This document shows positions 2,825 through 20,711 of a DNA stretch of 50,534 nucleotides, piece after piece; the first letter of the stretch is position 1; each line of letters begins with the position of its first letter. The stretch spans positions 1-50,534 of the forward strand of contig CALWLN010000003.1 of assembly GCA_944381535.1 (NCBI GenBank), given 5' to 3'. The translations under genes were made by a program, and so were the position numbers. The notes beneath the pieces were generated by a model. It did not search any database. It was not told the DNA's origin and saw only the letters and a program-made list of their open reading frames with translations. This DNA is from an uncultured Lachnospiraceae bacterium. Lineage in GTDB: Bacteria > Bacillota > Clostridia > Lachnospirales > Lachnospiraceae.

Positions 2825-2852
2825 TTTTCAGGCAGCATACGTCAGATCAAGT

Positions 2853-2899
2853 GCGGCGAACCTTATAAATCTGCAAGGTTCGCCGTTTTTCTGTTTTTT
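2853..2899 (+). terminator. Rho-independent terminator after surface protein gene
   Basis: The arms GGCGAACCTT (2855-2864) and AAGGTTCGCC (2875-2884) pair perfectly around a 10-base loop, with an extra C-G pair outside. GTTTTTCTGTTTTTTT follows. It lies about 30 bp after the surface-protein stop and directly upstream of the decayed dockerin gene, so that gene should receive little read-through. Confidence 0.92.
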
Positions 2900-2910
2900 T
2901 ATGCTATGCT

Positions 2911-5123: not shown

Positions 5124-5213
5124 TCAATTATCGCAGGAATTTTTTTCAAAAATTTTGTGCAGTTCGCTGAAAATCAGAGTATTTTCGAGGTAAGTAAGAA
5201 AGCTTGAAAAAAA

Positions 5214-5287
5214 TGGAAGCAAGGGGGCTCGAACCCCTGACCTTTCGCGTGTGAGGCGAACGCTCATCCCGGCTGAGCTATGCTTCC
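5214..5287 (-). tRNA. tRNA-Val (anticodon CAC)
   Basis: The minus strand folds as a full cloverleaf: acceptor GGAAGCA/TGCTTCC, D arm GCTC/GAGC, anticodon stem TTCGC/GCGAA with loop CTCACAC (anticodon CAC, valine), T arm AGGGG-TTCGAGC-CCCCT, and discriminator A. CCA is not encoded. A run of seven T follows at once and may help termination. Confidence 0.96.
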
Positions 5288-5296
5288 ATACGAATC

Positions 5297-5478: not shown

Positions 5479-6420
5479 TCAGTTCAACCGTATTCTGGTA
5501 CCGGTCTTTCCGTTGATTCCGTCTCTGGCTTTTTCCAGAAGGGTGATCAGAGCCGTGCGCTCCGGTCCCGATTCCGCAAAGGCGATACCGGCTTCCACCT
5601 TGGGAAGCATGGAGCCGGGGGCGAAGTGGCCCTCGGAGACATACTGCCTGGCTTCCTCCACTGTGACGTTGTCCAGCCATTTCTCATTCTCCTTGCCGAA
5701 GTTTAAGGCTACCTTTTCCACGGCGGTGAGTATGATTAAGAAGTCTGCGTTCAATTCCCTGGCTAACAGACAGCTTGCAAAATCCTTGTCGATAACGGCT
5801 CCCACGCCCTTTAGGTGGTTGCCCTGACGAATAACCGGAATACCGCCGCCGCCGCTGGCAATGACGATCTCACCGGCATGTAAAAGGTCTCTGACCGTGC
5901 CGATTTCCACAATTTCCACAGGCTTGGGAGAGGCCACCACACGTCGGTAGCCCCGGCCGGAATCCTCCTTCACCTGCATGCCCTCTGTGATGGCAAGGTC
6001 CGCTTCCTCTTTGGTGAGAAAATGACCAATGGGTTTGGTGGGATTTAGAAAGGCCGGGTCGTTTTCGTCCACCCGCACCTGGGTGATCACCGTGGCCACG
6101 GATTTTTCAATGCCCCGGTTTAAGAGCTCCTCCCGCAAAGCGTTCTGCAGGTCGTAGCCGATGTAGGCCTGGCTCATGGCCACGCAGACAGACAGGGGCG
6201 TGAAGGTGGGGTGATTGGGGTCCATGCGGCCGTATGCGCCCATGGCGTTGTTGATCATGCCCACCTGGGGGCCGTTTCCGTGGGAGATAATGACCTCGTG
6301 GCCCTCCTCGATCAGGTCGGCAATGGCTTTGGACGTAGTCTGTACGGCCACATACTGCTCCGGCAGGTTATTGCCCAGGGCGTTTCCCCCCAAAGCGATG
6401 ACAATTCTTTTTTTATCCAT
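5479..6420 (-). CDS. arcC: Carbamate kinase
   Basis: 313 residues, the usual family length. It carries the N-terminal IVIALGGNALG nucleotide-binding motif, SHGNGPQVG, and ASGGGGIPV. The enzyme makes ATP and carbamate from carbamoyl phosphate and ADP in the cytoplasm. The start at 6420 is preferred over an in-frame upstream start because GGAGAGGG lies just before it and the protein then begins at the conserved MDKKRIVIALGGN. It is the last gene of the leftward operon, directly after the carbamoyltransferase that would supply carbamoyl phosphate. It corresponds to yqeA of the E. coli purine cluster. This is the energy-yielding step proposed for the pathway. Confidence 0.94.
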   Translation of the reverse strand: MDKKRIVIALGGNALGNNLPEQYVAVQTTSKAIADLIEEGHEVIISHGNGPQVGMINNAMGAYGRMDPNHPTFTPLSVCVAMSQAYIGYDLQNALREELLNRGIEKSVATVITQVRVDENDPAFLNPTKPIGHFLTKEEADLAITEGMQVKEDSGRGYRRVVASPKPVEIVEIGTVRDLLHAGEIVIASGGGGIPVIRQGNHLKGVGAVIDKDFASCLLARELNADFLIILTAVEKVALNFGKENEKWLDNVTVEEARQYVSEGHFAPGSMLPKVEAGIAFAESGPERTALITLLEKARDGINGKTGTRIRLN

Positions 6421-6454
6421 AGTTATATCCCTCTCCGATATATGATGCGATGTA

Positions 6455-6478
6455 GGGGGCATAAGGTATTTTGCCCCC
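6455..6478 (-). other. Intercistronic hairpin between ygeW and arcC
   Basis: Inverted repeat GGGGGCA/TGCCCCC (6455-6461 and 6472-6478) with a 10-base loop and no T-run, in a 111-bp gap. It could be a processing or mRNA-stability element that lets ygeW and arcC levels differ. Confidence 0.4.
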
Positions 6479-6531
6479 CATGCTGTCGCTGATTGTACTG
6501 TATTTTCCGCCCCGCAAGCTGTAAAGGACGA

Positions 6532-7725
6532 TTAGTCCATTTTCCGTTTCGCGGCCCGCTCCTCCAAAGCCTTTAAGGTCGCCTGGGGATTTTCAAATTT
6601 GCTTAAGAAAATCATGGCGGCGATGATGTAGGGCTTGTAGCTTGCCTCTTTGTACAGAGGATTGCGGTAGCGGTCAAATACGGAAGCGTCAACCTCGCCC
6701 TCCTTGCAGCTTACGCCGGTGATGTCGGCGGGCAGGCAGTGCATATACAGAGCCTTTCCGTCCTTGGTAAGCTTCATCATTTCCTCGGTGCAGGCCCAGT
6801 CCTTGTGCTCCGCGTTCTGTGCCAGAAGCTCCTGCTCTAAGGCCTTGATACCGTCAAAGTCGCCTTCCCCGTAGAGGTTGGTGCGCTTCTCCATGGCGGC
6901 GAAGGGAGCCCAGCTCTTGGGGTATACGATGTCGGCGTCCTTAAAGGCCTCCGCCATATCGTTGGTCTTGGTGAAGGAACCGCCGGATTTCTCGGCGTTG
7001 GTCTTGGCGACTTCTTCCACCTCGGGCATTACCTCGTAGCCCTCCGGATGAGCCAGAACCACCTCCATGCCGAATCTCGTCATCAGACCGATGATACCCT
7101 GGGGCACGGACAGGGGTTTTCCGTAGGAGGGGGAGTAGGCCCAGGTCATGGCGACCTTTTTGCCCTTCAGATTTTCGATTCCGCCGAATTCGTGGATGAT
7201 ATGTAAGGCGTCAGCCATGGCCTGTGTGGGATGGTCGATATCGCACTGGAGATTTACCAGCGTGGGTCTCTGCTCTAAGATGCCGTCGGCATGCCCCTGC
7301 TGCACGGACTCGGAAACTTCACGCATGTAAGCGTTTCCTTTTCCGATGTACATGTCGTCACGGATACCGATCACATCCGCCATAAAGGAAACCATGTTGG
7401 CAGTCTCCCGGACGGTTTCGCCGTGGGCTACCTGAGATTTTCCTTCATCTAAATCCTGAACTTCCAGGCCCAGAAGATTGCAGGCGGAAGCGAAGGAAAA
7501 GCGGGTGCGGGTGGAGTTGTCACGGAACAGGGAAATTCCTAAGCCGCTCTCAAATACTTTGGTGGAAATGTTGTTTTCCCGCATGAAGCGCAGAGCGTCG
7601 GCAATGGTGAATACGGCCTCAAGCTCGTCATCGGATTTTTCCCAGGTCAGGAAAAAGTCGTTGTTGTACATTTCCTTGAAATTTAAGGCATTGAGCTTGT
7701 CGATGTAATCCTGTAAAGTTTTCAT
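6532..7725 (-). CDS. ygeW: Knotted carbamoyltransferase YgeW
   Basis: 397 residues of the aspartate/ornithine carbamoyltransferase superfamily. The carbamoyl-phosphate loop STRTR is at residues 71-75; HPTQAMAD and HCLPAD are also present. Length and the TWAYSPSYGKPLSVPQ region match the YgeW branch with a knotted C-terminal domain rather than OTCase. In the purine pathway it is thought to work as a ureido lyase, phosphorolysing a ureido group to carbamoyl phosphate and an amine; the exact substrate cannot be read from sequence, with 2,3-diureidopropionate derivatives the likely class. Start chosen by AAGGAG 9 bp upstream. It lies between ygeY and arcC on the same strand. Confidence 0.93.
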   Translation of the reverse strand: MKTLQDYIDKLNALNFKEMYNNDFFLTWEKSDDELEAVFTIADALRFMRENNISTKVFESGLGISLFRDNSTRTRFSFASACNLLGLEVQDLDEGKSQVAHGETVRETANMVSFMADVIGIRDDMYIGKGNAYMREVSESVQQGHADGILEQRPTLVNLQCDIDHPTQAMADALHIIHEFGGIENLKGKKVAMTWAYSPSYGKPLSVPQGIIGLMTRFGMEVVLAHPEGYEVMPEVEEVAKTNAEKSGGSFTKTNDMAEAFKDADIVYPKSWAPFAAMEKRTNLYGEGDFDGIKALEQELLAQNAEHKDWACTEEMMKLTKDGKALYMHCLPADITGVSCKEGEVDASVFDRYRNPLYKEASYKPYIIAAMIFLSKFENPQATLKALEERAAKRKMD

Positions 7726-7797
7726 AGTGTGTTCTCCTTTTTAAAAAAAATGGTTTTAAAGGGTTTCGGATAAAAATGCATGGGACGAAATGTTCTT

Positions 7798-7846
7798 GAC
7801 CCAGGGTTCCCAAAGTCATGGGGGATGGAACGCATGACCCTGGGTC
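7798..7846 (-). other. Intercistronic inverted repeat between ygeY and ygeW
   Basis: Perfect 10-bp arms GACCCAGGGT (7798-7807) and ACCCTGGGTC (7837-7846), with a 29-base interior that can form a small CCCA/TGGG hairpin. No T-run follows on either strand, so it is not a standard terminator. The gap is 151 bp, long for this operon. Confidence 0.45.
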
Positions 7847-7876
7847 TTTGATATTATTACATGAAATTTATGTAGT

Positions 7877-9190
7877 TTATTCCTGGCAGTACATACCCGG
7901 CAGCGCCGCATAGACGGCTGCGCAGGTCACAAGGTCCTGTTTCCAGGTCTTCTCGTTGGGCGCGTGGGCCTGAGCCTCCGCGCCGGGGCCGAAGCCGATG
8001 CAGGGGATCCCGTTTCTTCCCATGATGGAAACGCCGTTGGTGGAGAAGGTCCATTTGTCGGTCAGCGGGCGGGCTCTGCGCATTTCCAGGGTTTCCTCGG
8101 CGCCAATGCGGGAATCGCCGTAAAGGCTGGTGTAGGCATTTTCCAGAGCCCTGGTCACCTTGTGGTCCTTGGGGATGGCCCAGGTGGGGAAGTAGCATTC
8201 GATCTCGTATACACAGCCGGTGTAGGAGGGCCTGTCGTAATTGTACATGGAAACCTTTACATCATCCCCGTATTTCTGTACGCTGGGCAGGGCGCGAATC
8301 TCGTCCAGACAGCTTTCCCAGGTCTCCCCGAAGGTCATCCGGCGGTCCAGGGAAACGGAGCAGGAGTCGGCCACGGCGCAGCGGCTGGGGGAGGTGTAGA
8401 AAATCTCGGAGACGGTAACGGTGCCCCGGCCCAGGAAGCGGGCTTCCTCCCAGTCCTTGTTGTATTTGGGGTCTAACATTTTCACAAGGCCCTTGATTTC
8501 GGTGTCATCCTCCGCGTCATTTTCATTTAAGGCCCGGACATCCTGGAGAATGTCGGCCATCTTAAAGATGGCGTTGTCTCCCCGTTCGGGAGCGGAGCCG
8601 TGGCAGGAGATACCCTTCACGTCCACGCGGATTTCCATACGTCCTCGCTGTCCCCGGTAGATACCGCCGTCGGTGGGCTCGGTGGAAACCACGAATGCCG
8701 GACGGATTTTATCTTCGTTGATGATGTACTGCCAGCAGAGACCGTCGCAGTCCTCCTCCTGAACGGTACCAACCACCATGATTTTGCAGCCCTCGGGGAT
8801 CAGATTCATATCCTTCATGATCCTGGCCCCGTATACGGCGGATACGATTCCGCCGAGCTGATCGGATACGCCCCGGCCGCCGATTTCGGTGTCGGTCTCG
8901 TAGCCTTCATAGGGGTCGAAGGTCCAGTTCTCAATGTTTCCGATTCCTACGGTGTCGATGTGCGCGTCGAAGGCGATGATTTTATCGCCAGTTCCCATGT
9001 AGCCGATGACGTTGCCCTGGGGGTCGATGGTCACCTCGTCAAAGCCCACCTTTTTCATCTCGGCGGCGATGGTCTCAATGTGGGCCTTTTCCTGGCAGCT
9101 TTCGCCGGGATTTCTCACGATGGCCCGAAGGAACGCAGTCATGTCCTTCTCGTAGCTTTGCGCGGCTTCTTTGATTTTGTTTAAGTCCAT
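7877..9190 (-). CDS. ygeY: M20-family amidohydrolase/peptidase YgeY
   Basis: 437 residues of the M20 metallopeptidase family. The metal ligands are visible: HID (His77, Asp79), Asp110 in GRGVSDQ, and the QEED pair at about 145-147, with a later [11 protein letters not shown] motif from the dimerisation lid. M20 enzymes hydrolyse amide bonds of N-acyl or N-carbamoyl amino acids. In the ygeWXY group it is expected to remove a ureido (carbamoyl) group during purine-ring breakdown. The start has AGGAGGG at normal spacing. Cytoplasmic, with no signal peptide. The gene follows ygeX by 35 bp on the same strand. Confidence 0.92.
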
Positions 9191-9225
9191 TTGTAAAACC
9201 CTCCTTTTTTATGATTGTTTATGGT

Positions 9226-10434
9226 TTATAAATATTGTTTGCCGTCCCACACGATTTCCTTGTAGCGGTCCGGGTCGGTATCGCCCTCGGTGGAGAAGAG
9301 CAGTACTCTGGATTCTTTATTGAGGTCTAAGGCCTCCTTCAAATCGGCATAAGCCGGATTTGTCATGATTTCCACCAGCACGCCGAAGGGCGCGGCGCCG
9401 GATTCACCGGAGGTTACCTGCACATCGCCCTTGATAGGGGCGGCCAGCATGCGCATGCCCTTGGCGGCCACCCAGTCGGGAGCTGCGGCGAATATGGATA
9501 CGTGGTTCTTTAAAATGTCCCAGGAGATGGTGTTGGGCTCTCCGCAGGCCAGCCCGGCCATGATGGTCTGCATATCGCCGTCTACGATGGCTTCTTCCCC
9601 GTCACCCTGCACAGCGCCTTTGTAGAGGCAGGCTCCCGCGTCAGCTTCCACCACGATCACGGTGGGAGGCTTGTCGGAATATTTGTTGGCGAAGTACCCC
9701 TGCACAGCCCCCGCCAGAGAGCCTACGCCGGCCTGAACGAAGATGTGGGTGGGCCGGTCAATGCCGTAATCGGCAAGCTGTCCGCTGGCTTCCAGGGCCA
9801 TGGTTCCGTAGCCCTGCATGATCCAGGAGGGAATCTCCTCATATCCCTTCCAGGCGGTATCCTGGACTACTACGCCGTTTGGAGTTTTTGCGGCGGCAGC
9901 AGCGGCCATGCGCACGCATTCGTCGTAGTTGACTTCCTCGATGGTGGCGGTGGCGTTTTCAGCCTGGATATTTTTCAATCTCGTCTCGGTGGAACCTTTG
10001 GGCATGAATACCACAGCTTTCTGGTTCAGACGGTTGGCTGCCCAGGCAACGCCCCGTCCGTGGTTGCCGTCGGTGGCGGTGAAGAAGGTGGCCTGGCCGA
10101 ATTCCTCCCGGAGCTTGTCGGAGGTTAAGGTGTCGAAGTCAAGCTCGCTGATGTCTCTGCCGGTCTTACTGGCAATGTATTTGGCCATTGCGAAGGAGCC
10201 GCCCAGCACCTTGAAGGCGTTGAGACCGAACCGGTAGGACTCATCCTTGATACACACGTCGGAGAGTCCCAGATAATCCGCCATGTGGGTGAGGCGTGCC
10301 AAAGGAGTGGGAGCGTAACCCGGGATGGTCCTGTGGAAAGCATGGGCTTTCTCTACCTCGGTGAGGGCCATCACGGGCAGATTCCCATCCGCCGTCTTTG
10401 GCATAGTGTTTTTGGTCCATTTGATTTCTTTCAT
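9226..10434 (-). CDS. ygeX: Diaminopropionate ammonia-lyase
   Basis: 402 residues, close to E. coli YgeX/DpaL. A fold-type II PLP enzyme with the Schiff-base lysine in LNAFKVLGG (Lys75), TATDGNHGRGVAWAA, and a glycine-rich phosphate loop QAGVGSLAGAV. It splits 2,3-diaminopropionate into pyruvate and two ammonia through 2-aminoacrylate. AGGAGGG precedes the start. The gene lies 20 bp downstream of the regulator gene and is the first catabolic gene of the leftward operon. It would supply the carbon product (pyruvate) of purine degradation. Confidence 0.95.
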   Translation of the reverse strand: MKEIKWTKNTMPKTADGNLPVMALTEVEKAHAFHRTIPGYAPTPLARLTHMADYLGLSDVCIKDESYRFGLNAFKVLGGSFAMAKYIASKTGRDISELDFDTLTSDKLREEFGQATFFTATDGNHGRGVAWAANRLNQKAVVFMPKGSTETRLKNIQAENATATIEEVNYDECVRMAAAAAAKTPNGVVVQDTAWKGYEEIPSWIMQGYGTMALEASGQLADYGIDRPTHIFVQAGVGSLAGAVQGYFANKYSDKPPTVIVVEADAGACLYKGAVQGDGEEAIVDGDMQTIMAGLACGEPNTISWDILKNHVSIFAAAPDWVAAKGMRMLAAPIKGDVQVTSGESGAAPFGVLVEIMTNPAYADLKEALDLNKESRVLLFSTEGDTDPDRYKEIVWDGKQYL

Positions 10435-10454
10435 GTAAAATACCCTCCTTTATT

Positions 10455-11099
10455 TTAATTTTTGCTGGTGTCCAGGTAGCTGTACAAGGTATATTTGGAA
10501 ATGCCGAAGAATTTGGATATCTTATCTCCGGACTTTGTGATCAGAAATGCGCCGGAGTCATTTAAAAAGCGGATGGCCGCCACCTTCTCCTCCTTGTTCA
10601 TAAGAGCGACGGGCTTTCCCACCAGCTTTACGGACTGGGCAATCAGATCGTCCAGAAGATCGTTGACGTTCTGGGTAATGCGTTCCGGCTCCTTCCGTGG
10701 TATGGCCTCCTCTTCAAAGCCGGTTAAGGATTTGAGGCTTTCTTCTAAATAAAGAAGATTGGTGATATCATAATTTATGGAAAAAATGTAATTGACCCGG
10801 CCGGTGGTTTCCTCCCGCACGAAGATGGTGCTGGACTTTAAGGTCTTGCCGTCATTGGTCCTGGTAAGATATCCAAGCTGGTCCTGGATCTGCGCCGGGT
10901 CCTTCTGCAGGGTCTCCAGGACAATGTGGGAGGGGCCGTCTCCCAGTTTGCGGTTGGTGATCTGTCCGTTTTCAATATATACGATGGACTTGTTGATGCT
11001 CTTCTTGGTCAGGTCGTGGATGACAATCTCGCAGTTGCTGCCGAATTGTCTGGAAAGGGCACGAGCCATCTGTTTTAGAAATTCTAGCGTATTACTCAT
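10455..11099 (-). CDS. YheO/DauR-type PAS-HTH transcription regulator
   Basis: 214 residues. Residues 1 to about 115 resemble the YheO-like PAS domain (CEIVIHDL...SIVYIENGQI...), and about 150-210 a DauR-like helix-turn-helix ending SKFFGISKYTLYSYLD. Regulators of this family sense small metabolites and control nearby catabolic genes. It is the first gene of the leftward operon and faces ssnA across a 266-bp divergent region, so it most likely controls both arms in response to a purine intermediate. The ligand is unknown. Start supported by AAAGGA. Confidence 0.85.
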   Translation of the reverse strand: MSNTLEFLKQMARALSRQFGSNCEIVIHDLTKKSINKSIVYIENGQITNRKLGDGPSHIVLETLQKDPAQIQDQLGYLTRTNDGKTLKSSTIFVREETTGRVNYIFSINYDITNLLYLEESLKSLTGFEEEAIPRKEPERITQNVNDLLDDLIAQSVKLVGKPVALMNKEEKVAAIRFLNDSGAFLITKSGDKISKFFGISKYTLYSYLDTSKN

Positions 11100-11200
11100 A
11101 GTAAAATCCTTTCTATGTCAAAACATCTGGAGCACGCGCCGGGTACCGGCTTTCCGCCTCCGGGCGAGAATGTTCGGTCCGGGTTTCCCGTCTTGCCTTT

Positions 11201-11228
11201 ATCATAACACAAAAAAAATAAAAAGCAA
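11201..11228 (-). promoter_or_regulatory. Candidate promoter of the leftward purine operon
   Basis: Minus-strand TTGCTT (11223-11228), 16-base spacer, TATGAT (11201-11206), about 100 bp before the regulator start. The unusually long, GC-rich leader (11100-11200) could hold regulatory structure; no known riboswitch was recognised in it. Confidence 0.5.
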
Positions 11229-11275
11229 TACCAAATCTAAAAAAATTTTAGGTAAAAACAAAAAAAGTGAGATTT

Positions 11276-11305
11276 TTGATGTTGCTTTTTTTCATAATAT
11301 ATGAT
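11276..11305 (+). promoter_or_regulatory. Candidate promoter of the rightward purine operon
   Basis: TTGATG (11276-11281), 18-base spacer, TATGAT (11300-11305), about 60 bp before the ssnA start. The stretch between this and the leftward promoter (about 11207-11275) is very A/T-rich and is the natural place for a shared operator. Confidence 0.45.
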
Positions 11306-11365
11306 AGAGTGTAATTAGATTAAATAGTCAAGCAATTCTGAGCACATAGCAGAAGGGAGAAGCGT

Positions 11366-12697
11366 ATGATACTGATTGGGAACGGAACGGTGATCACAAG
11401 AGAGGAAGCCTGTCCGATGATCGCGAATGGGGGCGTGCTTACGGACGGGACAAAAATTGTCAGGGTAGGAGACTTTGAGGACCTGAAAAAGGAATATCCT
11501 GACGCGGAAGTGATGGATGTGGGGGGCAGGCTGATCATGCCGGGGTTGATCAACACCCATGAGCATATCTACAGCGCTTTTGCAAGAGGCCTTTCCATAA
11601 AAGGATATGATCCCAGGGGATTTCTGGATATCCTGGACGGTATGTGGTGGACCATTGACCGACACCTGACTTTGGAGCAGACGAGACTTTCCGCCGTGGC
11701 TACTTACATAGACTGTATCAAGAACGGCGTGACCACGGTCTTTGACCATCATGCCAGCTTCGGGCAGATTGAGGGGAGTCTTTTTGCCATTGCGGACGCG
11801 GCCAGGGAGCTGGGGGTGCGCGCCTGCCTCTGTTATGAGGTGTCCGACCGGGACGGGGAGGAGAAAGCCAGAGCTTCCGTGAAGGAAAACGCTGATTTTA
11901 TTAAATATGCCGCAAAGCAGGAGGGGGATATGGTGAAGGCCATGATGGGCATGCACGCCCAGTTCACCATTTCCGATAAGACCATGGACCTGTGCCGGGA
12001 GAATATGCCGGAGGGCGTGGGTGCCCACATCCATGTGGCCGAGGGGATTGAGGATCTGCATCACTGCCTGAAGCATTACGGCAAGCGGATCGTGAACCGC
12101 CTGATGGATCATGACATTTTAGGACCCCAGACTCTGACGGCCCACTGCATTTATATCAACAGCCAGGAGATGGATCTTTTAAAGGCCACCGATACCATGG
12201 TGGTACATAACCCGGAATCCAACATGGGCAATGCCTGCGGCTGCCCGCCCACCATGGAGATATTTAAGCGGGGGATTTTAACGGGCCTTGGAACCGACGG
12301 TTACACCCACGATATGTTTGAGTCCTATAAGGTGGCCAACGTGCTGCACAAGCATTCCCTGTGCGACGCCAACGCAGCCTGGGGCGAGGTTCCGGCCATG
12401 CTGTTTGAGGGAAACGCGAAAATTGCCAACCGCTATTTCAAGACGCCTCTGGGCGTGCTGAAGGAAGGGGCGGCGGCGGATATCGTGGTGGCGGAATACG
12501 ACCCGCTCACCCCCATGCACGCGGGAAACATTAACAGCCATATGCTGTTCGGCATGAACGGAAGCAAAATCGTAACCACCATGTGTAACGGCAAGGTGCT
12601 GATGAAGGACCGGGAGCTTCTGGGTATCGACGAGGCCAAGGCCATGGCGGACTGCCGGCAGGCGGCAAAAGAGCTGGCGGACAGCATAAATGCATAG
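11366..12697 (+). CDS. ssnA: Amidohydrolase SsnA
   Basis: 443 residues of the metal-dependent amidohydrolase superfamily (guanine deaminase/chlorohydrolase branch). Metal ligands: THEH (His65, His67), then HIHVAEG, TAHC and GLGTDGYTHDM near the end of the barrel. It carries out a hydrolytic deamination or ring-opening in purine breakdown; the E. coli homologue sits next to ygfK and is also needed for purine use. AAGGGAG precedes the start. First gene of the rightward arm. The exact substrate is not settled by sequence. Confidence 0.93.
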   Translation: MILIGNGTVITREEACPMIANGGVLTDGTKIVRVGDFEDLKKEYPDAEVMDVGGRLIMPGLINTHEHIYSAFARGLSIKGYDPRGFLDILDGMWWTIDRHLTLEQTRLSAVATYIDCIKNGVTTVFDHHASFGQIEGSLFAIADAARELGVRACLCYEVSDRDGEEKARASVKENADFIKYAAKQEGDMVKAMMGMHAQFTISDKTMDLCRENMPEGVGAHIHVAEGIEDLHHCLKHYGKRIVNRLMDHDILGPQTLTAHCIYINSQEMDLLKATDTMVVHNPESNMGNACGCPPTMEIFKRGILTGLGTDGYTHDMFESYKVANVLHKHSLCDANAAWGEVPAMLFEGNAKIANRYFKTPLGVLKEGAAADIVVAEYDPLTPMHAGNINSHMLFGMNGSKIVTTMCNGKVLMKDRELLGIDEAKAMADCRQAAKELADSINA

Positions 12698-12777
12698 TCT
12701 GAATAATGAAATAGCGGCCCGCACAGGAGCAGAGTGCAGACAGGCAATTACGATGATAAATACGAGGAGGTATTTTT

Positions 12778-15768
12778 ATGGGAGACAGAATGACACCGAT
12801 TCCCTTTGGGAATCTGATGAACTGGGTATTGGAGGAGAAAAAGAAGGATAACAGAGTGTTTGGCGTCCGTCGGATGTACAGGGCCGACCCGGACAAATCT
12901 GCCGAACTTTTCGGGGAGAAGATGGAGACGCCCTTCGGCCCCGCAGCGGGACCGAATACCCAGCTTGCCCAGAATATCATAGCGTCCTATGTGACCGGCT
13001 GCCGGTTCTTCGAGCTTAAGACCGTGCAGATTCTGGACGGGGAGGATTTGCCGGTGGCAAAGCCCTGCATACTGGCGGAGGACGAGTGCTACAACTGCGA
13101 GTGGTCTACGGAGCTTCGGGTGCCGGACGCGGCAGACGAGTACATAAAGGCATGGATTGCCCTGAAGGTTCTGGCCATCGAGTATGGTCTGGGTTCCTCC
13201 GACGGATTCATCTTTAATATGAGCGTGGGCTACGATCTGAAGGGGATTCAGTCGGAAAAGATTGATACTTTTATTGAAAATATGAAGGAAGCGAAGGACA
13301 CCGAGGAGTGGAAACGCAGTATCGGGTGGCTTAGGGAGAATATCCACCGGTTTTCCAGGGTGACGATGGAGGATGTGGAGGCTATTTCTTCCAATATCTG
13401 TAACTCTGTGACCGTGTCCACCCTCCACGGCTGTCCGCCCCAGGAGATTGAGAGCATTGCCACGTACCTGATAGAGGAAAAACATCTGAATACCTTTATC
13501 AAGTGTAATCCCACCCTCTTAGGCTATGAGACAGCCAGAGAGATCATGGATAGTATGGGTTATGATTACGTGGTGTTCGGAGACTTCCATTTTAAGGATG
13601 ATCTGCAGTTTGAGGACGCCGTTCCCATGCTTCGACGGCTTCAGAAGCTCGGTGAGGAGAAGGGTGTGGAATTCGGTGTGAAGATCACCAACACCTTCCC
13701 GGTGGACGTGACCAGAGAAGAACTGCCGAGTCAGGAAATGTACATGTCGGGAAAATCCCTGTGCGCCCTGTCCCTGTCGGTGGCCCATAAGCTCTCCGAG
13801 GCCTTTGAAGGGAAGCTTCGGATTTCCTACTCCGGGGGAGCTGATTATTTCAACATTGATAAGATTTTCAGCCTGGGGATCTGGCCCATCACCGTGGCCA
13901 CCACCCTCCTGAAGCCCGGCGGATATCTGAGAGATATCCAGTTGGCGGAGAAGCTGGCTGCTATGGAATATCAGCCCTTTACCGGCGTGGACGTGGAAGG
14001 GCTGGGGCGTCTAATTGAGGAAATCCGGCAGGATGAGCACCACCGCAAGGCCATAAAGCCCCTGCCCTCCCGGAAAATGGCAAAGAAGGTTCCTCTTCTT
14101 GACTGTTTTACCGCCCCCTGCAGCGAGGGATGTCCCATTCACCAGGATATCCCGGCGTATGTGAAGCTGGTAGGGGAAGGGAAGGACGCGGAGGCCCTGA
14201 GAGTCATTCTTGATAAGAATCCGCTGCCCTTCATCACGGGAACCATCTGCAATCACCGGTGTATGGACAAATGTACACGAAACTTTTATGAAGAATCCGT
14301 CAATATCCGGGGAGCCAAGCTGGCGGCGGCCCAGGGCGGCTATGAAGACGTTCTGCGGGAATTGGCCGGTTCCGGAGCGTCTGCCGGACAGAAAGCGGCT
14401 GTCATCGGGGGAGGTCCTGCGGGAATTGCGGCGGCTCATTTCCTGGCAAGAGCGGGTGTGGACGTGACGGTCTATGAAAAATCCGGCGTCCTGGGCGGCG
14501 TGGTAGCGCAGGTCATTCCGGGCTTTCGTATCGCCGATTCAGCCATTGAGAAGGATGTGGAGCTGGCAAGGGCTCTGGGTGTGAAGTTCGTGCTGAACCA
14601 TCCGGTGACGGATGTGGAAGCCTTGCGGGCGGAGGGCTTCGACGGGATATTTGTGGCTGTGGGCGCAAACAAGGGCATGGCTCTGGGTATTGAGACAGAG
14701 GCGGAGTGGAATGCGGTAGAATTCCTCTGGGCCTGTAAGAATCAGCCGGATACCGTCAAGGCCGGAGAACATGTGGTGGTCATCGGCGCCGGCAACACAG
14801 CTATGGACGCAGCGAGAGCGGCAAAGAGGCTTCCCGGCGTTAAGAAGGTTTCCGTGGTATATCGGAGAACCAAACGCTACATGCCCGCGGACGAGGAAGA
14901 GCTCCGGCTTGCCCTGGAGGACGGCGTGGAATTCCTGGAACTTCTGGCTCCAAAGTGTCAGAAGGACGGCGTGCTTGTCTGCAACAAGGTGGTGCTGGGG
15001 GAGATGGATGTTTCGGGCCGGCAGAAGCCGGTGGTGACGGTGGAAGAAGTGGAAGTGCCGGCAGATACCGTAATCGCTTCCCTGGGAGAAAAGGTGGATT
15101 CCGACTATTATAAATCCCTGGGAATTGCCCTGGATGAAAAAGGTGTTCCGGTGCTGAGCGAGGCCATGGAAAGTTCCAAAGAAGGCATCTATCTCATCGG
15201 CGACGGCGCAAAAGGACCGGCCACCGTGGTGATGGCGATCCGGGACGCTCAGGCAGCCGTGAACCATTATCTGGGAGCGGAGGCCAGGGCCGAGATTACC
15301 GTTGACACCGACCCGGAACAGGCGGCAGATAAGAAGGGTATTCTTGCGCACAGCAGCCTGGCGGACAAAGAGGACGCGCGCTGTCTGGAGTGCAACCATA
15401 TCTGTGAGAACTGTGTGGATGTATGTCCCAACCGGGCAAATGTGTCTGTGAAGGTTCCCGGAAATACCATGCCGGCCATCATTCATGTGGATTATATGTG
15501 CAATGAGTGCGGCAACTGCAGGAGCTTCTGCCCCTACGACAGCGCGCCCTACAAGGAGAAATTTACCTTGTTTGCTAACGAGAAGGACTTTGCGGACAGT
15601 GAAAACGACGGTTTTGTGATTCTGGACAGGGAGACCCTTAAGACCAGAGTACGGCTTTCCGGCAGCGTGACGGAGGAAGTGCTGACCGGTGACGACTGCG
15701 GGTTGTTTGCGGGCCTTAAGGATGTCATCGTAAGTATCGGGGAGAATTACTCCTATCTGCTGCTATAA
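12778..15768 (+). CDS. ygfK: Large Fe-S flavoprotein YgfK (purine pathway reductase)
   Basis: 996 residues. The N-terminal ~430 residues resemble a dihydroorotate/dihydropyrimidine-dehydrogenase-type barrel (GPAAGPNTQLAQNI, STLHGCPPQEIE, YSGGADYFN). From Cys443 comes a GltD-like Fe-S segment (CFTAPCSEGCPIHQDIPAY, CNHRC), then two dinucleotide folds (GGGPAG near 544, VIGAGNTAMDAARAA near 670), and two C-terminal ferredoxin-like clusters (CLECNHICENCVDVCP from 869, CNECGNCRSFCP from 908). It is usually labelled a putative selenate reductase subunit, but the context argues for electron transfer to or from a purine or its breakdown product. GAGGAGG precedes the start. It lies between ssnA and hydA. 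Confidence 0.93.
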   Translation: MGDRMTPIPFGNLMNWVLEEKKKDNRVFGVRRMYRADPDKSAELFGEKMETPFGPAAGPNTQLAQNIIASYVTGCRFFELKTVQILDGEDLPVAKPCILAEDECYNCEWSTELRVPDAADEYIKAWIALKVLAIEYGLGSSDGFIFNMSVGYDLKGIQSEKIDTFIENMKEAKDTEEWKRSIGWLRENIHRFSRVTMEDVEAISSNICNSVTVSTLHGCPPQEIESIATYLIEEKHLNTFIKCNPTLLGYETAREIMDSMGYDYVVFGDFHFKDDLQFEDAVPMLRRLQKLGEEKGVEFGVKITNTFPVDVTREELPSQEMYMSGKSLCALSLSVAHKLSEAFEGKLRISYSGGADYFNIDKIFSLGIWPITVATTLLKPGGYLRDIQLAEKLAAMEYQPFTGVDVEGLGRLIEEIRQDEHHRKAIKPLPSRKMAKKVPLLDCFTAPCSEGCPIHQDIPAYVKLVGEGKDAEALRVILDKNPLPFITGTICNHRCMDKCTRNFYEESVNIRGAKLAAAQGGYEDVLRELAGSGASAGQKAAVIGGGPAGIAAAHFLARAGVDVTVYEKSGVLGGVVAQVIPGFRIADSAIEKDVELARALGVKFVLNHPVTDVEALRAEGFDGIFVAVGANKGMALGIETEAEWNAVEFLWACKNQPDTVKAGEHVVVIGAGNTAMDAARAAKRLPGVKKVSVVYRRTKRYMPADEEELRLALEDGVEFLELLAPKCQKDGVLVCNKVVLGEMDVSGRQKPVVTVEEVEVPADTVIASLGEKVDSDYYKSLGIALDEKGVPVLSEAMESSKEGIYLIGDGAKGPATVVMAIRDAQAAVNHYLGAEARAEITVDTDPEQAADKKGILAHSSLADKEDARCLECNHICENCVDVCPNRANVSVKVPGNTMPAIIHVDYMCNECGNCRSFCPYDSAPYKEKFTLFANEKDFADSENDGFVILDRETLKTRVRLSGSVTEEVLTGDDCGLFAGLKDVIVSIGENYSYLLL

Positions 15769-15782
15769 AGGAGGCGCGTCAT

Positions 15783-17156
15783 ATGGATACACTGCTTCAG
15801 GGCGGAACCATCGTTACACCTCAGGGGAGTTTTGCGGGAGATATCCGCGTTCGGGGAGAGCGCATTACAGAGATTGGGGAAGGGCTTATCGCCCAGGGGG
15901 AGAAGGTGATTCCGGTGGAGGGAAAGCTTCTGTTTCCGGGATTTATTGACACCCACACCCATTTTGATCTGGATGCGGGATCCTTTCACACGGCGGATGA
16001 TTTCGCGACGGGAACCCGGGCGGCCATTGCGGGGGGAACCACGGTGATTCTGGATTTTACGACCCAGGAGAAGGGCGAGACCCTGATGGAGGCTCTTGGA
16101 AACTGGCACAGGCTGGCAGATGGAAAATGCTCCTGCGATTATGGATTCCATATGTCCATCACCGACTGGAATGAGGCGGTAAGAAAAGAACTGCCGCTGA
16201 TGACCCGGGAGGGAGTGACCTCTTACAAGCTTTATATGGCCTACGACAATTTAAAGGTTTCCGACGGGGAGATATTTGAAATACTACAGGCGGTGGAGCA
16301 TGAGGGCGGCATTATCGGCGTCCACTGCGAGAACGGGGAGCTGATCACAGAGCTTTCCGGGCAGCTTCTGGCCCGGGGAGAGACGGGGCCGGAAGCCCAT
16401 CCGAAAGCACGCCCGGCGGAGATTGAAGCGGAGGCCGTTTACCGTCTTTTGACCATCGCCAGAATGGCCGGCACGCCGGTAAATATCGTACATCTGAGCA
16501 CCAGAAGGGCTTACGAGGTGGTCCGGGCGGCCCGGGCGGAGGGCCAGCGGGTCTATGTGGAATCCTGTCCCCAGTATTTTCTTTTGGAGGATTCCAAATA
16601 TGAGCTTGCGGGCTTTGAGAGCGCCAAGTACGTGCTGTCGCCGCCCCTTCGGAAACAGGAGGATGTGGACTGCCTGTGGAAGGCTCTGGCAGCCGGGGAG
16701 ATTGATACAATCGGCACGGACCATTGCAGCTTTCATTTTCATGGACAGAAGGAGCGGGGACTTAAGGATTTCACTAAAATCCCCAACGGACTGCCCGGAG
16801 TGGAGCACCGGCCGGTGCTGATGTACACCTACGGCGTTGGCACGGGAAAAATCACAAAGGAGCAGTTCTGCGGCGTGCTTTCGGAAAATCCGGCGAAGCT
16901 CTTCGATATGTATCCCAGGAAGGGCGCTCTGATGGTGGGCAGCGACGCTGACATCGTTGTCTGGGACCCGGAGGCGAAGGATGTGATCTCCGCCGGGACG
17001 CAGGTTCAGAATGTGGACTATACGCCCTATGAGGGTATGAAGATCAAGGGAAAACCCGTGCAGGTGTTCCTGCGGGGGACCCTGGTATACCGGGAGGGGC
17101 AGGTGGTCGTCCCCGGGCAGGGAAGATATGTACACAGAGGGCGGTCCGGGTTATAA
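15783..17156 (+). CDS. hydA: Dihydropyrimidinase/hydantoinase-type amidohydrolase
   Basis: 457 residues. Catalytic features of the family: DTHTHFD (His58, His60), the carbamylated lysine in SYKLYMAYDN (Lys149), GVHCENGE (His181), IVHLST and GTDHCSF. It opens cyclic ureides (hydantoin or dihydropyrimidine rings) and is the homologue of E. coli hydA/hyuA of the same cluster. It starts 14 bp after ygfK with AAAGGAGG, so the two are co-transcribed. Expected role: opening the five- or six-membered ring left after YgfK and SsnA. Confidence 0.93.
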   Translation: MDTLLQGGTIVTPQGSFAGDIRVRGERITEIGEGLIAQGEKVIPVEGKLLFPGFIDTHTHFDLDAGSFHTADDFATGTRAAIAGGTTVILDFTTQEKGETLMEALGNWHRLADGKCSCDYGFHMSITDWNEAVRKELPLMTREGVTSYKLYMAYDNLKVSDGEIFEILQAVEHEGGIIGVHCENGELITELSGQLLARGETGPEAHPKARPAEIEAEAVYRLLTIARMAGTPVNIVHLSTRRAYEVVRAARAEGQRVYVESCPQYFLLEDSKYELAGFESAKYVLSPPLRKQEDVDCLWKALAAGEIDTIGTDHCSFHFHGQKERGLKDFTKIPNGLPGVEHRPVLMYTYGVGTGKITKEQFCGVLSENPAKLFDMYPRKGALMVGSDADIVVWDPEAKDVISAGTQVQNVDYTPYEGMKIKGKPVQVFLRGTLVYREGQVVVPGQGRYVHRGRSGL

Positions 17157-17168
17157 CAAAATATAGTT

Positions 17169-17205
17169 GTTCCTAACGAAATTCTGATAGAATTTCGTTA
17201 GGAAC
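17169..17205. promoter_or_regulatory. Perfect 16-bp palindrome upstream of ridA-tetR
   Basis: Arms GTTCCTAACGAAATTC and GAATTTCGTTAGGAAC are separated by five bases. It lies 12 bp after hydA and about 40 bp before ridA. No T-run follows, so as a terminator it would be weak. Its symmetry and its place just before an operon encoding a TetR regulator suit an operator. A mixed role (mRNA hairpin at the operon boundary) is possible. Confidence 0.55.
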
Positions 17206-17245
17206 CGTTCATATCATTTATTTCATCAACAGGAGGAAAACAAAC

Positions 17246-17623
17246 ATGAAAAAAGCAGTAAACGCAAGCAACGCACCGGCAGCGGTGGGACCTTATGTTC
17301 ATGCGGTGGAGACCGGAGAACTGGTATTTACCTCAGGACAGCTTGGCTTAGACCCGGTAAGCGGTGAGCTTCCGGAGGGCGTGGAGGCACAGACCCACCA
17401 GAGCCTTAAGAATCTGGACGCCGTTCTCAAAGCGGCAGGCTCCGATTTTGACCATGTAGTAAAGACCACCGTATTTCTTGACAATATGGGCGATTTTGCA
17501 ACCGTCAACGCCATTTATGCCGAATATTTCAAAGGAGAGGTCCCCGCGCGTTCCTGCGTGGAGGTGGCAAAGCTTCCCAAAGGCGCTCTGGTAGAGATCG
17601 AGGCCATTGCCGTAAAGGCATAG
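17246..17623 (+). CDS. ridA: RidA family enamine/imine deaminase
   Basis: 125 residues, the usual RidA/YjgF length, with GPYVHAVETGELVFTSGQLG and the C-terminal PARSCVEVAKLPKGALVEIEA signature including the conserved arginine. RidA proteins hydrolyse 2-aminoacrylate and related enamines to keto acids and ammonia in the cytoplasm. YgeX in the same locus goes through 2-aminoacrylate, which gives a direct reason for its presence here. GGAGG precedes the start. Confidence 0.95.
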   Translation: MKKAVNASNAPAAVGPYVHAVETGELVFTSGQLGLDPVSGELPEGVEAQTHQSLKNLDAVLKAAGSDFDHVVKTTVFLDNMGDFATVNAIYAEYFKGEVPARSCVEVAKLPKGALVEIEAIAVKA

Positions 17624-17636
17624 GAGCAGTCCGTAT

Positions 17637-18230
17637 ATGGAGCGCGTAAAAGGGGCTGATACCCAGGAGCGCATTTTAAACGCGGCCTTAAAGGTCATCA
17701 ACGCGGAGACGATCAGCGGAACCAGAATGCATTTGATTGCCCAGAAGGCGGATGTGGTACAGTCCAATGTCCATTACTATTATAAGACAAAGCAGGATTT
17801 GCTGCTGGCTCTCCAGGAACGGGTGCTTTCCCAGTGCTATGACATCCGGGAGCAGGACAAAAAGCAGAGCGAGGATACGCTGGAAAGCCAGCTGCATATC
17901 TTTTTTCAGCAGAAGAAGTTTCTGATCAGCAAGCGGAGCGACTATGATTTTGCGGAGTTGGACTTTCTGATTCAAGGGAAAAATGATGAGGAGATCCATG
18001 ACCGCTTTGTGGAGTCCTATGAGCGTTGGCGGGATGATATCCGGGAAGTGATCATCCGCTATTGTCCCGGTATGGATGAGGAGACCAAGGAGATCCTGCC
18101 CTTTATCATCGTCGCCATGATGCAGGGAGCAAGCCTGCAGACGCTGGTGGAGAAAAACGGGTTTGATGTGGAGGTTTTTTTCGCGAAATGTGAGGAGATG
18201 TTGCTTCAATATTTAAAGCAATATCAATAA
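17637..18230 (+). CDS. TetR-family transcription regulator
   Basis: 197 residues with an N-terminal TetR helix-turn-helix (about 8-55; ERILNAALKVI...VQSNVHYYYKTKQDLL) and an unassigned helical ligand domain. It starts 14 bp after ridA and is followed 20 bp later by the permease gene, so it belongs to the ridA-permease operon and probably represses it. The 37-bp palindrome at 17169-17205 is a plausible binding site. Ligand unknown; a purine is the obvious candidate. Confidence 0.87.
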   Translation: MERVKGADTQERILNAALKVINAETISGTRMHLIAQKADVVQSNVHYYYKTKQDLLLALQERVLSQCYDIREQDKKQSEDTLESQLHIFFQQKKFLISKRSDYDFAELDFLIQGKNDEEIHDRFVESYERWRDDIREVIIRYCPGMDEETKEILPFIIVAMMQGASLQTLVEKNGFDVEVFFAKCEEMLLQYLKQYQ

Positions 18231-18250
18231 GGAACAGGAGAAGAAGGGGA

Positions 18251-19627
18251 ATGGAGACAAAAAAAGCAAAGAGGCAGTACGCCTCTGTATTTGAACAGAC
18301 GGGAGTGCCCCGGATGAAGGAGGCAGTTCCGTTGGCATTGCAGCATGTGGCGGCTATGATTGTGGGGTGCGTGACCCCTGCCATTATTGTTTCTCAGGTG
18401 GCCGGGCTGACCTCCCAGGACCGGATCATTCTGGTGCAGGCGGCGTTGATGATGGCGGGAATCTCTACGCTTTTGCAGATTTTTCCCATAGGGAAGCTGT
18501 TGGGAAGCGGCCTTCCGGTTATTCTGGGGGTGGGCTTTGCCTATCTTCCCAGCGTGTCCGCATTGGTTTCCGGCTATGATCTGGCCACTGTGTTCGGCGC
18601 CCAGTTGATCGGCGGCTTTCTGGCGATACTGGTGGGGCTGAATGTGAAGCGGCTGATAAAATTTTTCCCGCCGCTGATCACGGGAACGGTGGTATTTACC
18701 ATCGGTCTGTCCCTGTATCCCACCGCCATCAAATATATGGCGGGCGGCGAGAGCAGCGCTAATTACGGAAGCTGGCAGAACTGGCTGGTGGCCTTGATCA
18801 CCCTGGCGGTTGTGACGGTTCTGAACCATTTCGGAAAAGGCATTTGGAAGCTGGCGTCTATTTTGATCGGTATTGTTGTGGGTTACATTGTCAGCATGTT
18901 TTTCGGAATGCAGGATTTTTCATCCATCGGGCAGGCCGGGATCATTCAGCTTCCCATTCCTCTGCATTTCGGCATGAAATTCGATATTTCGGCCATTGCG
19001 ACCCTTGGTATTCTGTTTGTGGTCAATTCGGTGCAGGCCATCGGCGACTTTACGGCCACTACTACCGGCGGTATGGGGCGGCTGCCCAAGGATGAGGAGC
19101 TTCGTGGCGGAATTGTCACTTACGGCGTTACTAACCTTCTGTCCTCCTTCTTCGGAGGACTGCCCACGGCCACCTTCAGTCAGAACGTGGGAATCGTGGT
19201 GACTACCAAGGTCATCAACCGCGTGGTATTCGGTATCGCTTCGGTGGTGATCATATTGGCCGGACTGTTTCCGAAATTTTCCGCGATACTCACCACCATA
19301 CCCCAGTGTGTACTGGGCGGCGCCACCATCTCGGTCTTTGCCTCCATCACCATGACGGGTGTGAAGCTTCTGACCACCGAGGAAATGAATTACCGGAACA
19401 CCTCCATTGTGGGGCTTTCCGTGGCTCTCGGCATGGGGATCACCCTGGTGCCCGAGGCGTTATCCCATTTTCCCGGGTGGGTGAGTACTGTGTTCGGAAA
19501 ATCGCCGGTGGTGGTGGCTACGATTTGCGCCATTCTGCTGAATTCGATTCTGCCGGGAAAAAAGGGAAATAAGACAGCGGAGGAATTAGAAGAAGCCATG
19601 GGCGAGGCGAAGGAAGAAAAGGAGTAA
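18251..19627 (+). CDS. NCS2 family xanthine/uracil-type permease
   Basis: 458 residues, strongly hydrophobic with about 12-14 membrane segments. Family hallmarks: LQHVAAM in the first segment and the NCS2 signature QNVGIVVTTK. These proton symporters import xanthine, urate, uracil or other nucleobases. By context the substrate is most likely xanthine or urate, giving the cell its purine supply. Ribosome binding site AGGAGAAGAAGGGG. Coupled with the upstream tetR and the downstream XdhC-like gene (4 bp gap). Confidence 0.92.
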   Translation: METKKAKRQYASVFEQTGVPRMKEAVPLALQHVAAMIVGCVTPAIIVSQVAGLTSQDRIILVQAALMMAGISTLLQIFPIGKLLGSGLPVILGVGFAYLPSVSALVSGYDLATVFGAQLIGGFLAILVGLNVKRLIKFFPPLITGTVVFTIGLSLYPTAIKYMAGGESSANYGSWQNWLVALITLAVVTVLNHFGKGIWKLASILIGIVVGYIVSMFFGMQDFSSIGQAGIIQLPIPLHFGMKFDISAIATLGILFVVNSVQAIGDFTATTTGGMGRLPKDEELRGGIVTYGVTNLLSSFFGGLPTATFSQNVGIVVTTKVINRVVFGIASVVIILAGLFPKFSAILTTIPQCVLGGATISVFASITMTGVKLLTTEEMNYRNTSIVGLSVALGMGITLVPEALSHFPGWVSTVFGKSPVVVATICAILLNSILPGKKGNKTAEELEEAMGEAKEEKE

Positions 19628-19631
19628 CCGA

Positions 19632-20711
19632 ATGGACCGTTTTTTTGAGATGATCCCAGGGCTTTCGGCAGATAAGAACTACCGGACGGCGGTGGGAATT
19701 GACGGGGAGATAGCCGGAGAAAAGGCGGTGTTCTCGGAGGAGGGCGTGCTGTACCGGACGGAGGGATTTCCCGAGGAAATTTTGCGGGAACTTGGGGCGG
19801 AGTTCTCCCGTGCTGCGGAAAATGGCCCGGGTCTTTCGAAAAATGGCCCGAGTGCTGCGGAAAATGGCCCGGGCCTGCGGGAGACGGCCCGGGGCCGGGT
19901 CTTTGTGGAGGCTCTGGGAACCAGGAAGAAAATGGTGCTCTGCGGCGGCGGTCATGTGTCCCTGGCCACCCTTGCCATTGCGAAGATGACGGAATTTCAT
20001 ATTACGGTGGTGGAGGACCGGCCGGACTTTGCCCAGGCAGCTTTAAAGGCCGGGGCGGATGAGATCATCTGCGATGATTTCACCCACGGACTGAAAGACT
20101 TAAAGACCGATCTTGATACCTATGTGGTGATCATGACCCGGGGGCACCGGCACGATCTGGATTGCCTGCGGCAGCTGCTGACCAGGGAATACGCCTATCT
20201 TGGCATGATGGGAAGCCGTTCCCGGGTGAGGAAGATCAAAGAGCAACTGCGAGAGGAGGGCTTTGCGGAAGAACGGATAGAGCGTCTTCACGCTCCCGTA
20301 GGGCTGCCCATCTCGGCGGTGACCCCGGCGGAAATCGGCGTGTCCGTTCTGGCGGAGGTGATTCAGGAAAAGAACCAAAAGAAACGGCAGGTGGCCTACG
20401 AAAAGGAACTGGCGGACTGGCTGTTTTCGGAGGAACACCGGCAGTCGGCGGTGCTGGCCACTATCATTGCAAGAAAGGGCTCCGCGCCCCGGCAGGCGGG
20501 GACGAAAATGATAATCTTTGCTGATGGCAGCAGTCTCGGTACCATCGGCGGCGGCTGCATGGAGGCGGAGGTCAAAAGCCAGGCCCGGCATATGCTGGCG
20601 GGCGGGAGAGCGCGCTGTAAGACCTGCTTTGTGGATATGACAGGCCGGGAAGCAGAGGAGGAAGGAATGGTCTGCGGTGGGACGCTGGAGATTTATCTGG
20701 AAATTCTGTAG
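19632..20711 (+). CDS. XdhC/CoxI-family molybdenum-hydroxylase maturation factor
   Basis: 359 residues. A Rossmann XdhC domain comes first (VLCGGGHVSLATLA near residue 98, RGHRHD, GMMGSRSR), and the CoxI-type domain last (GSAPRQAGTKMIIFADGSSLGTIGGGCMEAE near 285-320). This is the reverse of the usual XdhC order. The family matures molybdenum hydroxylases such as xanthine dehydrogenase. No hydroxylase subunit gene is in the window, so the client must lie elsewhere. A repeated ENGPG linker (residues 61-82) looks like a recent tandem expansion. The 3' end seems to have been altered by insertion of an AT-rich island: it now ends EIYLEIL-stop, while a second copy reading EIYLEILRQLC-stop lies at 21465-21497. 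Confidence 0.86.
   Translation: MDRFFEMIPGLSADKNYRTAVGIDGEIAGEKAVFSEEGVLYRTEGFPEEILRELGAEFSRAAENGPGLSKNGPSAAENGPGLRETARGRVFVEALGTRKKMVLCGGGHVSLATLAIAKMTEFHITVVEDRPDFAQAALKAGADEIICDDFTHGLKDLKTDLDTYVVIMTRGHRHDLDCLRQLLTREYAYLGMMGSRSRVRKIKEQLREEGFAEERIERLHAPVGLPISAVTPAEIGVSVLAEVIQEKNQKKRQVAYEKELADWLFSEEHRQSAVLATIIARKGSAPRQAGTKMIIFADGSSLGTIGGGCMEAEVKSQARHMLAGGRARCKTCFVDMTGREAEEEGMVCGGTLEIYLEIL
20687..20708 (+). repeat. Left copy of 22-bp repeat flanking the AT-rich island
   Basis: Matches 21461-21482 in 20 of 22 bases. It is the last seven codons of the XdhC-like gene (EIYLEIL) plus two bases. Both differences are at third codon positions and are silent. Confidence 0.75.

Follow-up and report, generated by a model that had tools for sequence, protein, structure and literature searches.

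A gene cluster of a Lachnospiraceae bacterium predicted to encode the downstream part of the reductive urate pathway

Gene content and layout of the locus

The stretch analyzed here (hereafter, the window) consists of 50,534 nucleotides of a single contig, C3 (CALWLN010000003.1), from the 4.3 Mb, 93% complete assembly GCA_944381535.1 of an uncultured Lachnospiraceae bacterium. Between positions 5479 and 20711, 12 intact open reading frames (ORFs) form two divergent groups (Table 1) that probably represent, with a rough probability of 0.88, the downstream part, from YgfK onward, of the known reductive urate pathway. An earlier note on this DNA had recognized a set of anaerobic purine/urate degradation genes known from Escherichia coli and gut anaerobes, and this identification stood: all the genes it named are intact ORFs in the places it gave them and match their families, and the pathway is published. 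Eight enzymes exceed the curated NCBIfam cut-offs, and the translations show FKVLGG in YgeX, STRTR and HCLP in YgeW, and HxH in SsnA and HydA, which we take to be catalytic motifs. SsnA adjoins YgfK, and the permease falls slightly below the PbuX cut-off (401 against 414 bits). Compared with its E. coli counterpart, YgeY has two inserted segments, one of about 22 and one of about 14 residues. A tRNA-Val gene (5213-5288) lies just outside the locus; in an Rfam search of the whole window at gathering thresholds, the only match was a tRNA, and no RNA element was detected in the shared gap.

Table 1. Features of the locus, with profile scores and amino acid identities to E. coli proteins.
Feature	Position	Strand	Evidence
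arcC/yqeA-like carbamate kinase, ATP from carbamoyl phosphate	5479..6462	-	TIGR00746 388 bits, cut-off 358; 65% to E. coli cluster ArcC
ygeW knotted carbamoyltransferase	6532..7725	-	TIGR03316 807 bits, cut-off 500; 68% to E. coli
ygeY M20-family hydrolase	7877..9190	-	TIGR03526 655 bits, cut-off 321.5; 62% to E. coli
ygeX diaminopropionate ammonia-lyase (DpaL)	9226..10434	-	TIGR03528 620 bits, cut-off 532; 47% to E. coli
YheO-like PAS_6/HTH_22 transcription regulator	10455..11099	-	PF08348 117 bits, PF13309 70 bits
Shared divergent regulatory gap, 266 bp	11100..11365	.	between two start codons
Palindrome CTAAAAAAATTTTAG, candidate operator	11237..11251	.	15 bp; sole exact CTAAAANNNTTTTAG in assembly
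ssnA amidohydrolase	11366..12697	+	NF005540 676 bits, cut-off 444; 34% to E. coli
ygfK flavin/iron-sulfur reductase	12778..15768	+	TIGR03315 1364 bits, cut-off 835; 43% to E. coli
D-hydantoinase (hyuA/hydA)	15783..17156	+	TIGR02033 596 bits, cut-off 393; 38% to E. coli HyuA
ridA-type enamine/imine deaminase	17246..17623	+	TIGR00004 (Rid family) 176 bits, cut-off 106
TetR-family regulator	17637..18230	+	PF00440 32 bits, cut-off 24
NCS2 purine permease	18251..19627	+	PF00860 286 bits; 33% to E. coli XanQ
XdhC-like molybdenum cofactor factor, permuted order	19632..20711	+	Rossmann PF13478 at 101-243, CoxI PF02625 at 269-328

Direct comparison with the characterized E. coli cluster (ygeW-ygeX-ygeY-hyuA-arcC and ygfK-ssnA-ygfM-xdhD) showed the same genes, with enzyme identities from 68% (YgeW) to 34% (SsnA): the enzymes from YgfK on, the carbamate kinase step and a nearby NCS2 permease are common to both. 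Unlike the E. coli cluster, the window lacks xdhD-ygfM (an XdhAC-type enzyme is encoded elsewhere), has a divergent layout, contains a PAS/HTH regulator where E. coli has the sigma54-type activator YgeV, and includes ridA and a TetR gene inside the locus.

The closest relatives of YgfK come from Lachnospiraceae and their kin (86% identity to an uncultured Lachnospiraceae bacterium and 70% to Eubacterium ramulus, in a scan of named genomes from which very near records were possibly left out). At least 598 stretches were matched in the YgfK scan, 572 of them encoding relatives, and the best 80 were taken as related loci. Counting any tblastn match at E <=1e-8, orthologous or not, in loci many of which are cut by contig ends, we detected ssnA in 77 of these 80, the PAS regulator in 57, ygeY in 55, ygeX in 54, ygeW in 52, the NCS2 permease in 49, arcC in 46 and hydA in 39, with ridA (21), the XdhC-like protein (6) and TetR (4) less frequent within the fetched stretches. 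Among the 50 of these loci whose flanks exceed 8 kb on either side, ygeW, ygeY, ygeX, ssnA and ygfK occur together in 38, and 33 of the 50 repeat the divergence of ygeX, ygeY and ygeW from ssnA and ygfK, which excludes a chance arrangement. A locus of an uncultured Lachnospiraceae bacterium (L033) is the only one of the best 80 to match all twelve window genes; that of Eubacterium ramulus (L034) matches eleven, without the XdhC-like gene. At the other extreme, some Blautia loci contain, within the fetched stretch, only ssnA and ygfK among the tested genes. Thus, the window appears to hold a member of the known, published reductive urate pathway clusters, with a layout found in many relatives and largely ordinary; compared with the fetched stretches of most Lachnospiraceae and clostridial uricolytic clusters, it differs in the presence of the TetR and XdhC-like genes.

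Two short YgfK-like ORFs, of 562 codons (L023, G039:C1:4930-6531) and 575 codons (G029:C43:10932-12632), align with both ends of the profile (N-terminal up to 427 and 447, C-terminal from 886 and 879, respectively) but not with the FAD/NAD part in between; the second of these genomes carries a full YgfK besides the short one.

The first-step enzyme and the substrate

The reactions and their order are taken from the papers cited here, whereas the gene identities, the layout, the XdhAC-type gene elsewhere in the genome and the co-occurrence come from the present analysis. The gene set was tabulated as early as 2008 (PMC2276186), and the pathway steps were assayed in PMC12507026. Urate is converted to yanthine by XdhD or XdhAC; YgfK and SsnA yield mainly ureidomethyl-hydantoin, which HyuA converts to diureidopropionate; the ureido groups are taken off by YgeW and YgeY, and YgeX produces pyruvate (PMC12507026, PMC12990295). 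The step order, which the earlier note described as inferred, is therefore in print, except that it is disputed which ureido group leaves first.

Transferred to this organism, the scheme would start with the import of urate or another purine by the NCS2 permease. The XdhAC encoded on another contig, together with YqeB and YqeC, would reduce urate to yanthine, which YgfK would reduce further; SsnA and HydA would then open both rings, producing 2,3-diureidopropionate. YgeW would remove one ureido group as carbamoyl phosphate, from which ArcC would generate ATP, YgeY would remove the second one, and YgeX would cleave diaminopropionate, yielding pyruvate and ammonia, while RidA would dispose of the aminoacrylate intermediate. 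The XdhC-like factor would probably act in the maturation of the molybdenum enzyme, and the PAS/HTH regulator would probably act on both divergent operons via the palindrome in the shared gap. We infer the substrate in this organism, as well as the roles of the permease, RidA, the XdhC-like factor, the regulator and the palindrome.

The earlier note considered the locus complete, which proved not to be the case, because the molybdenum enzyme of the first step is encoded outside the window. Neither XdhD nor XdhAC was found in the window, and the XdhAC-type gene of this genome lies outside the 15-gene neighborhood applied in PMC12507026. A whole-genome search for the molybdenum-binding domain PF02738 yielded two matches, both on other contigs: an XdhA truncated by the end of contig C46, and a fused iron-sulfur/molybdenum protein on contig C29 that belongs to TIGR03311 (1327 bits, cut-off 830). 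In gene order, xdhB and xdhC come before the latter gene, and yqeB and a gene for a yqeC-containing protein come after it. The C29 protein has the make-up expected of XdhAC, the urate reductase of Clostridium sporogenes (PMC12990295), and is a candidate urate-to-yanthine reductase; the likeness to the C. sporogenes enzyme is one of gene make-up, with the TIGR03311 membership established for the C29 protein alone. In a published definition of the urate cluster, xdhAC is among the six marker genes (PMC12542679).

Across 299 genomes of the family, at E <=1e-200, a threshold that partial genes at contig ends can escape, YgfK was detected in 48, TIGR03311 in 50, and both in 47 (Fisher p of about 5e-50, uncorrected for kinship). 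The TIGR03311 gene shares the contig of ygfK in 37 of the 48 genomes and lies within 15 kb of it in 33. The window is one of the cases in which XdhAC, the usual neighbor, sits elsewhere.

Several observations weigh against assigning the locus to urate reduction. At the same threshold, YgfK occurs without TIGR03311 in one genome (G062), and TIGR03311 without YgfK in three (G155, G295 and G323). The XdhAC of this genome shares just 27% identity with E. coli XdhD, and their pairwise alignment has a gap in the region of Glu606, a residue that, according to PMC12507026, may orient the substrate in the E. coli enzyme. Identity to the E. coli enzymes is low for SsnA (34%) and HydA (38%), the XdhC-like gene of the window does not adjoin XdhAC, and the evidence gathered here comes from sequence.

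The main alternative is that the module acts not on urate but on a hydantoin, a dihydropyrimidine or another purine, with yanthine-like compounds imported from outside and with XdhAC and the XdhABC-type enzyme serving only in xanthine/hypoxanthine conversion. Such an activity would agree with the location of the first-step enzyme outside the locus, the assignment of HydA as a D-hydantoinase, the broad NCS2 kind of the permease, and the NCBIfam name of TIGR03311, xanthine dehydrogenase. Nevertheless, we consider it unlikely, given the presence of TIGR03311 in nearly all YgfK-encoding genomes, mostly close to ygfK, and the match of the full YgfK/SsnA/HyuA/YgeW/YgeY/YgeX set to the characterized pathway. 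A selenate reductase is suggested by family labels only ("putative selenate reductase subunit") and is very improbable: yanthine served as the substrate in an assay of YgfK together with SsnA, and E. coli lacking YgfK no longer formed ureidomethyl-hydantoin (PMC12507026). Allantoin, a possible substrate in the tests proposed by the earlier note, can be practically dismissed: although HydA is related to allantoinases, its score of 259 bits is below the allantoinase (AllB) cut-off of 358, whereas with 596 bits it exceeds the D-hydantoinase cut-off of 393, and although carbamate kinase is also used in allantoin fermentation, the scan of 30 window proteins listed no further family of the allantoin pathway.

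Two further features of the contigs outside the window were noted. The xdhA gene runs off the end of C46 (L011, 3-2138), and the frame at the start of C29 that precedes xdhB (L012, about 3-176) resembles its tail by eye, so that the two contigs may be neighbors. A single ORF on C29 (L012, 5262-6857) combines a YqeC match (residues 47-265) with a MocA/YgfJ match (residues 388-526, under the cut-off) and is likely a fusion of two selenium/molybdenum accessory proteins.

The permuted XdhC-like factor

The XdhC-like protein scores above the Pfam cut-offs for both of its domains, and both matching NCBIfam models hit it below cut-off and in two stretches. Both domains are shared with the XdhC maturation factors in PDB entries 2we7 and 3on5 and with the XdhC-like half of E. 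coli YqeB; however, their order is reversed, with the Rossmann domain preceding CoxI, whereas in E. coli YqeB, CoxI (11-99) precedes the Rossmann domain (95-253). This order is read from the sequence matches and not from the predicted structure, which is weak (mean predicted local distance difference test score 62.5 and predicted template modeling score 0.46, from four sequences); the top Foldseek matches are the XdhC structures 2we8, 2we7 and 3on5, with template modeling scores of 0.32-0.36, and are uninformative on domain order. In the openly accessible literature, we found no report of a circularly permuted XdhC, although one may already be in print elsewhere.

With the window protein as the query, 95 of the 299 family genomes contain a match. 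In 70 of them, one match runs through both domains in the order of the window protein, and 29, four of which also have the permuted kind, show the two parts in the usual order; a lone further Rossmann match (G079) was kept unclassified. A relative of the XdhC-like protein is present in all 48 YgfK-encoding genomes, compared with 47 of the other 251. Of these 48, 31 encode the permuted kind (three of them also the usual one), and 17 only the usual kind. As 39 genomes encode the permuted kind without YgfK, this form is not exclusive to urate use.

The XdhC-like half of E. coli YqeB is 38% identical to the Rossmann part of the window protein, and the other half is 42% identical to the separate YqeB of this genome; YqeB-type domains (TIGR03309) are often fused to XdhC-like domains (PMC2276186). 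This fusion and the co-occurrence with YgfK suggest that the XdhC-like factor matures XdhAC. A YqeB relative is located beside the permuted protein in two of 20 loci with 1.5-kb flanks (L113-L132, the locus of the window included).

The shared gap and its candidate operator

The earlier note described a single regulatory gap common to both strands, and this gap exists; its neighbor on the minus strand, however, is the PAS_6/HTH_22 regulator and not ygeX. The PAS/HTH gene is presumably the second of the two regulators that the earlier note regarded as the locus's own. Both genes are present, but the PAS regulator, with relatives in most related loci, is not special to this one. Neither are the importer and RidA, on which a similar claim had been made. 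We take tdcF to be a RidA-family gene. Both tdcF and pbuX are already listed in the predicted sigma54 (DioR) regulon, along with dpaL and ygeW-ygfK-ssnA-ygeY, the function of which was unknown at the time (PMC6615313). This regulon, predicted in Clostridioides, Clostridium and Desulfotomaculum (Clostridiales) (PMC6615313) and cited for Clostridioides difficile in PMC11448449, resembles the locus of the window in holding these genes together. Unlike in the DioR regulon, no match to the sigma54 factor was found in a PF04552 search of the 93% complete assembly, and sigma54 control was rejected: the window contains 11 sites with two or fewer mismatches, compared with 24 expected, and none of them is in the gap.

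The gap contains the only exact copy of CTAAAANNNTTTTAG in the whole assembly (the reversed control pattern occurs 6 times), so that no second copy was found that could tie XdhAC to the same regulator. We compared the gap that separates the PAS regulator from ssnA in 49 cases, the window and 48 of the best 80 loci. With spacings of 0-8 allowed, the dyad CTAAAA/TTTTAG is exact in 18 of the 49 gaps, the window included, with a spacing of 3 every time, and in 38 no more than one of its 12 letters differs; because the motif was found in the same gaps in which it was counted, the figure of 18 is not an independent test. Among 490 first-order random sequences, none contained all 12 letters, and 28 contained 11. 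Of the best 80 loci, 20 contain the exact form, with 21 sites in all (8 for the control): 17 sites are in a PAS/ssnA gap, one is in a ygeX/ssnA gap (L037), two are upstream of ygeX (L084), and one is off the gap (L034). The exact form is present in 20 of the 57 loci with a relative of the PAS regulator and in none of the 23 without one (Fisher p 0.0004, uncorrected for kinship and fetched length). This regulator may bind the palindrome.

A search of the 47 other YgfK-encoding genomes comes nearer to an independent test, although some species may be common to these genomes and the 80 loci. It yielded 43 exact sites in 19 genomes, with a summed count of 137 for the reversed control; the palindrome being rarer than its control genome-wide, the signal lies in place and not in number. 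An exact site is located 1.5-3.1 kb upstream of ygfK in nine genomes, where about 0.04 would be expected by simple proportion over about 169 Mb, and one genome (G319) has two sites at 8.3 kb. An exact site is missing from 28 of the 47 genomes, and 33 of the 43 sites fall outside the 3.5 kb upstream of ygfK, so that the exact form is neither present throughout nor restricted to this location.

A sigma70-like site at 11276-11305 (TTGATG-18-TATGAT) was rejected as being at chance level (1 found, 0.8 expected), and a minus-strand promoter beside the palindrome was read by eye alone. The published regulation that we encountered concerns the E. coli cluster and the clostridial sigma54 regulons, and among the listed titles and abstract beginnings of the openly accessible literature we found no report that ties YheO/PAS regulators to purines or describes a urate/ygfK regulator or operator of this kind, although such reports may already be in print.

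A broader and tentative scenario, which we rate somewhat below even odds, joins the two features: the urate pathway of Lachnospiraceae might have exchanged sigma54 control for a YheO-like PAS/HTH switch of its own, which recognizes one operator, CTAAAANNNTTTTAG, located between the two divergent operons, and the selenium-dependent urate reductase might be matured by a circularly permuted XdhC that takes the place of the YqeB-fused XdhC half, or of the ordinary XdhC, of other species.

Elsewhere in the window, a 2278-codon ORF (34228-41064) without a Pfam match at 1e-6 lies downstream of genes for an oligopeptide-type ABC transporter and an NlpC/P60 protein. ORFs at 5-4059 contain Listeria-Bacteroides repeats and a dockerin domain, which suggests surface or cellulosome-like proteins.

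The regulator/palindrome pair and the permuted XdhC are the less familiar side details, of modest interest, of an otherwise known cluster. Gut bacteria that consume urate reportedly influence its level in the blood (PMC12507026), and it therefore matters which genomes hold the whole pathway. As seen here, a cluster may appear whole even if its first enzyme is encoded in another place, and searches for XdhAC should cover the entire genome. The candidate operator and the regulator offer a testable approach to how urate use may be turned on in Lachnospiraceae.

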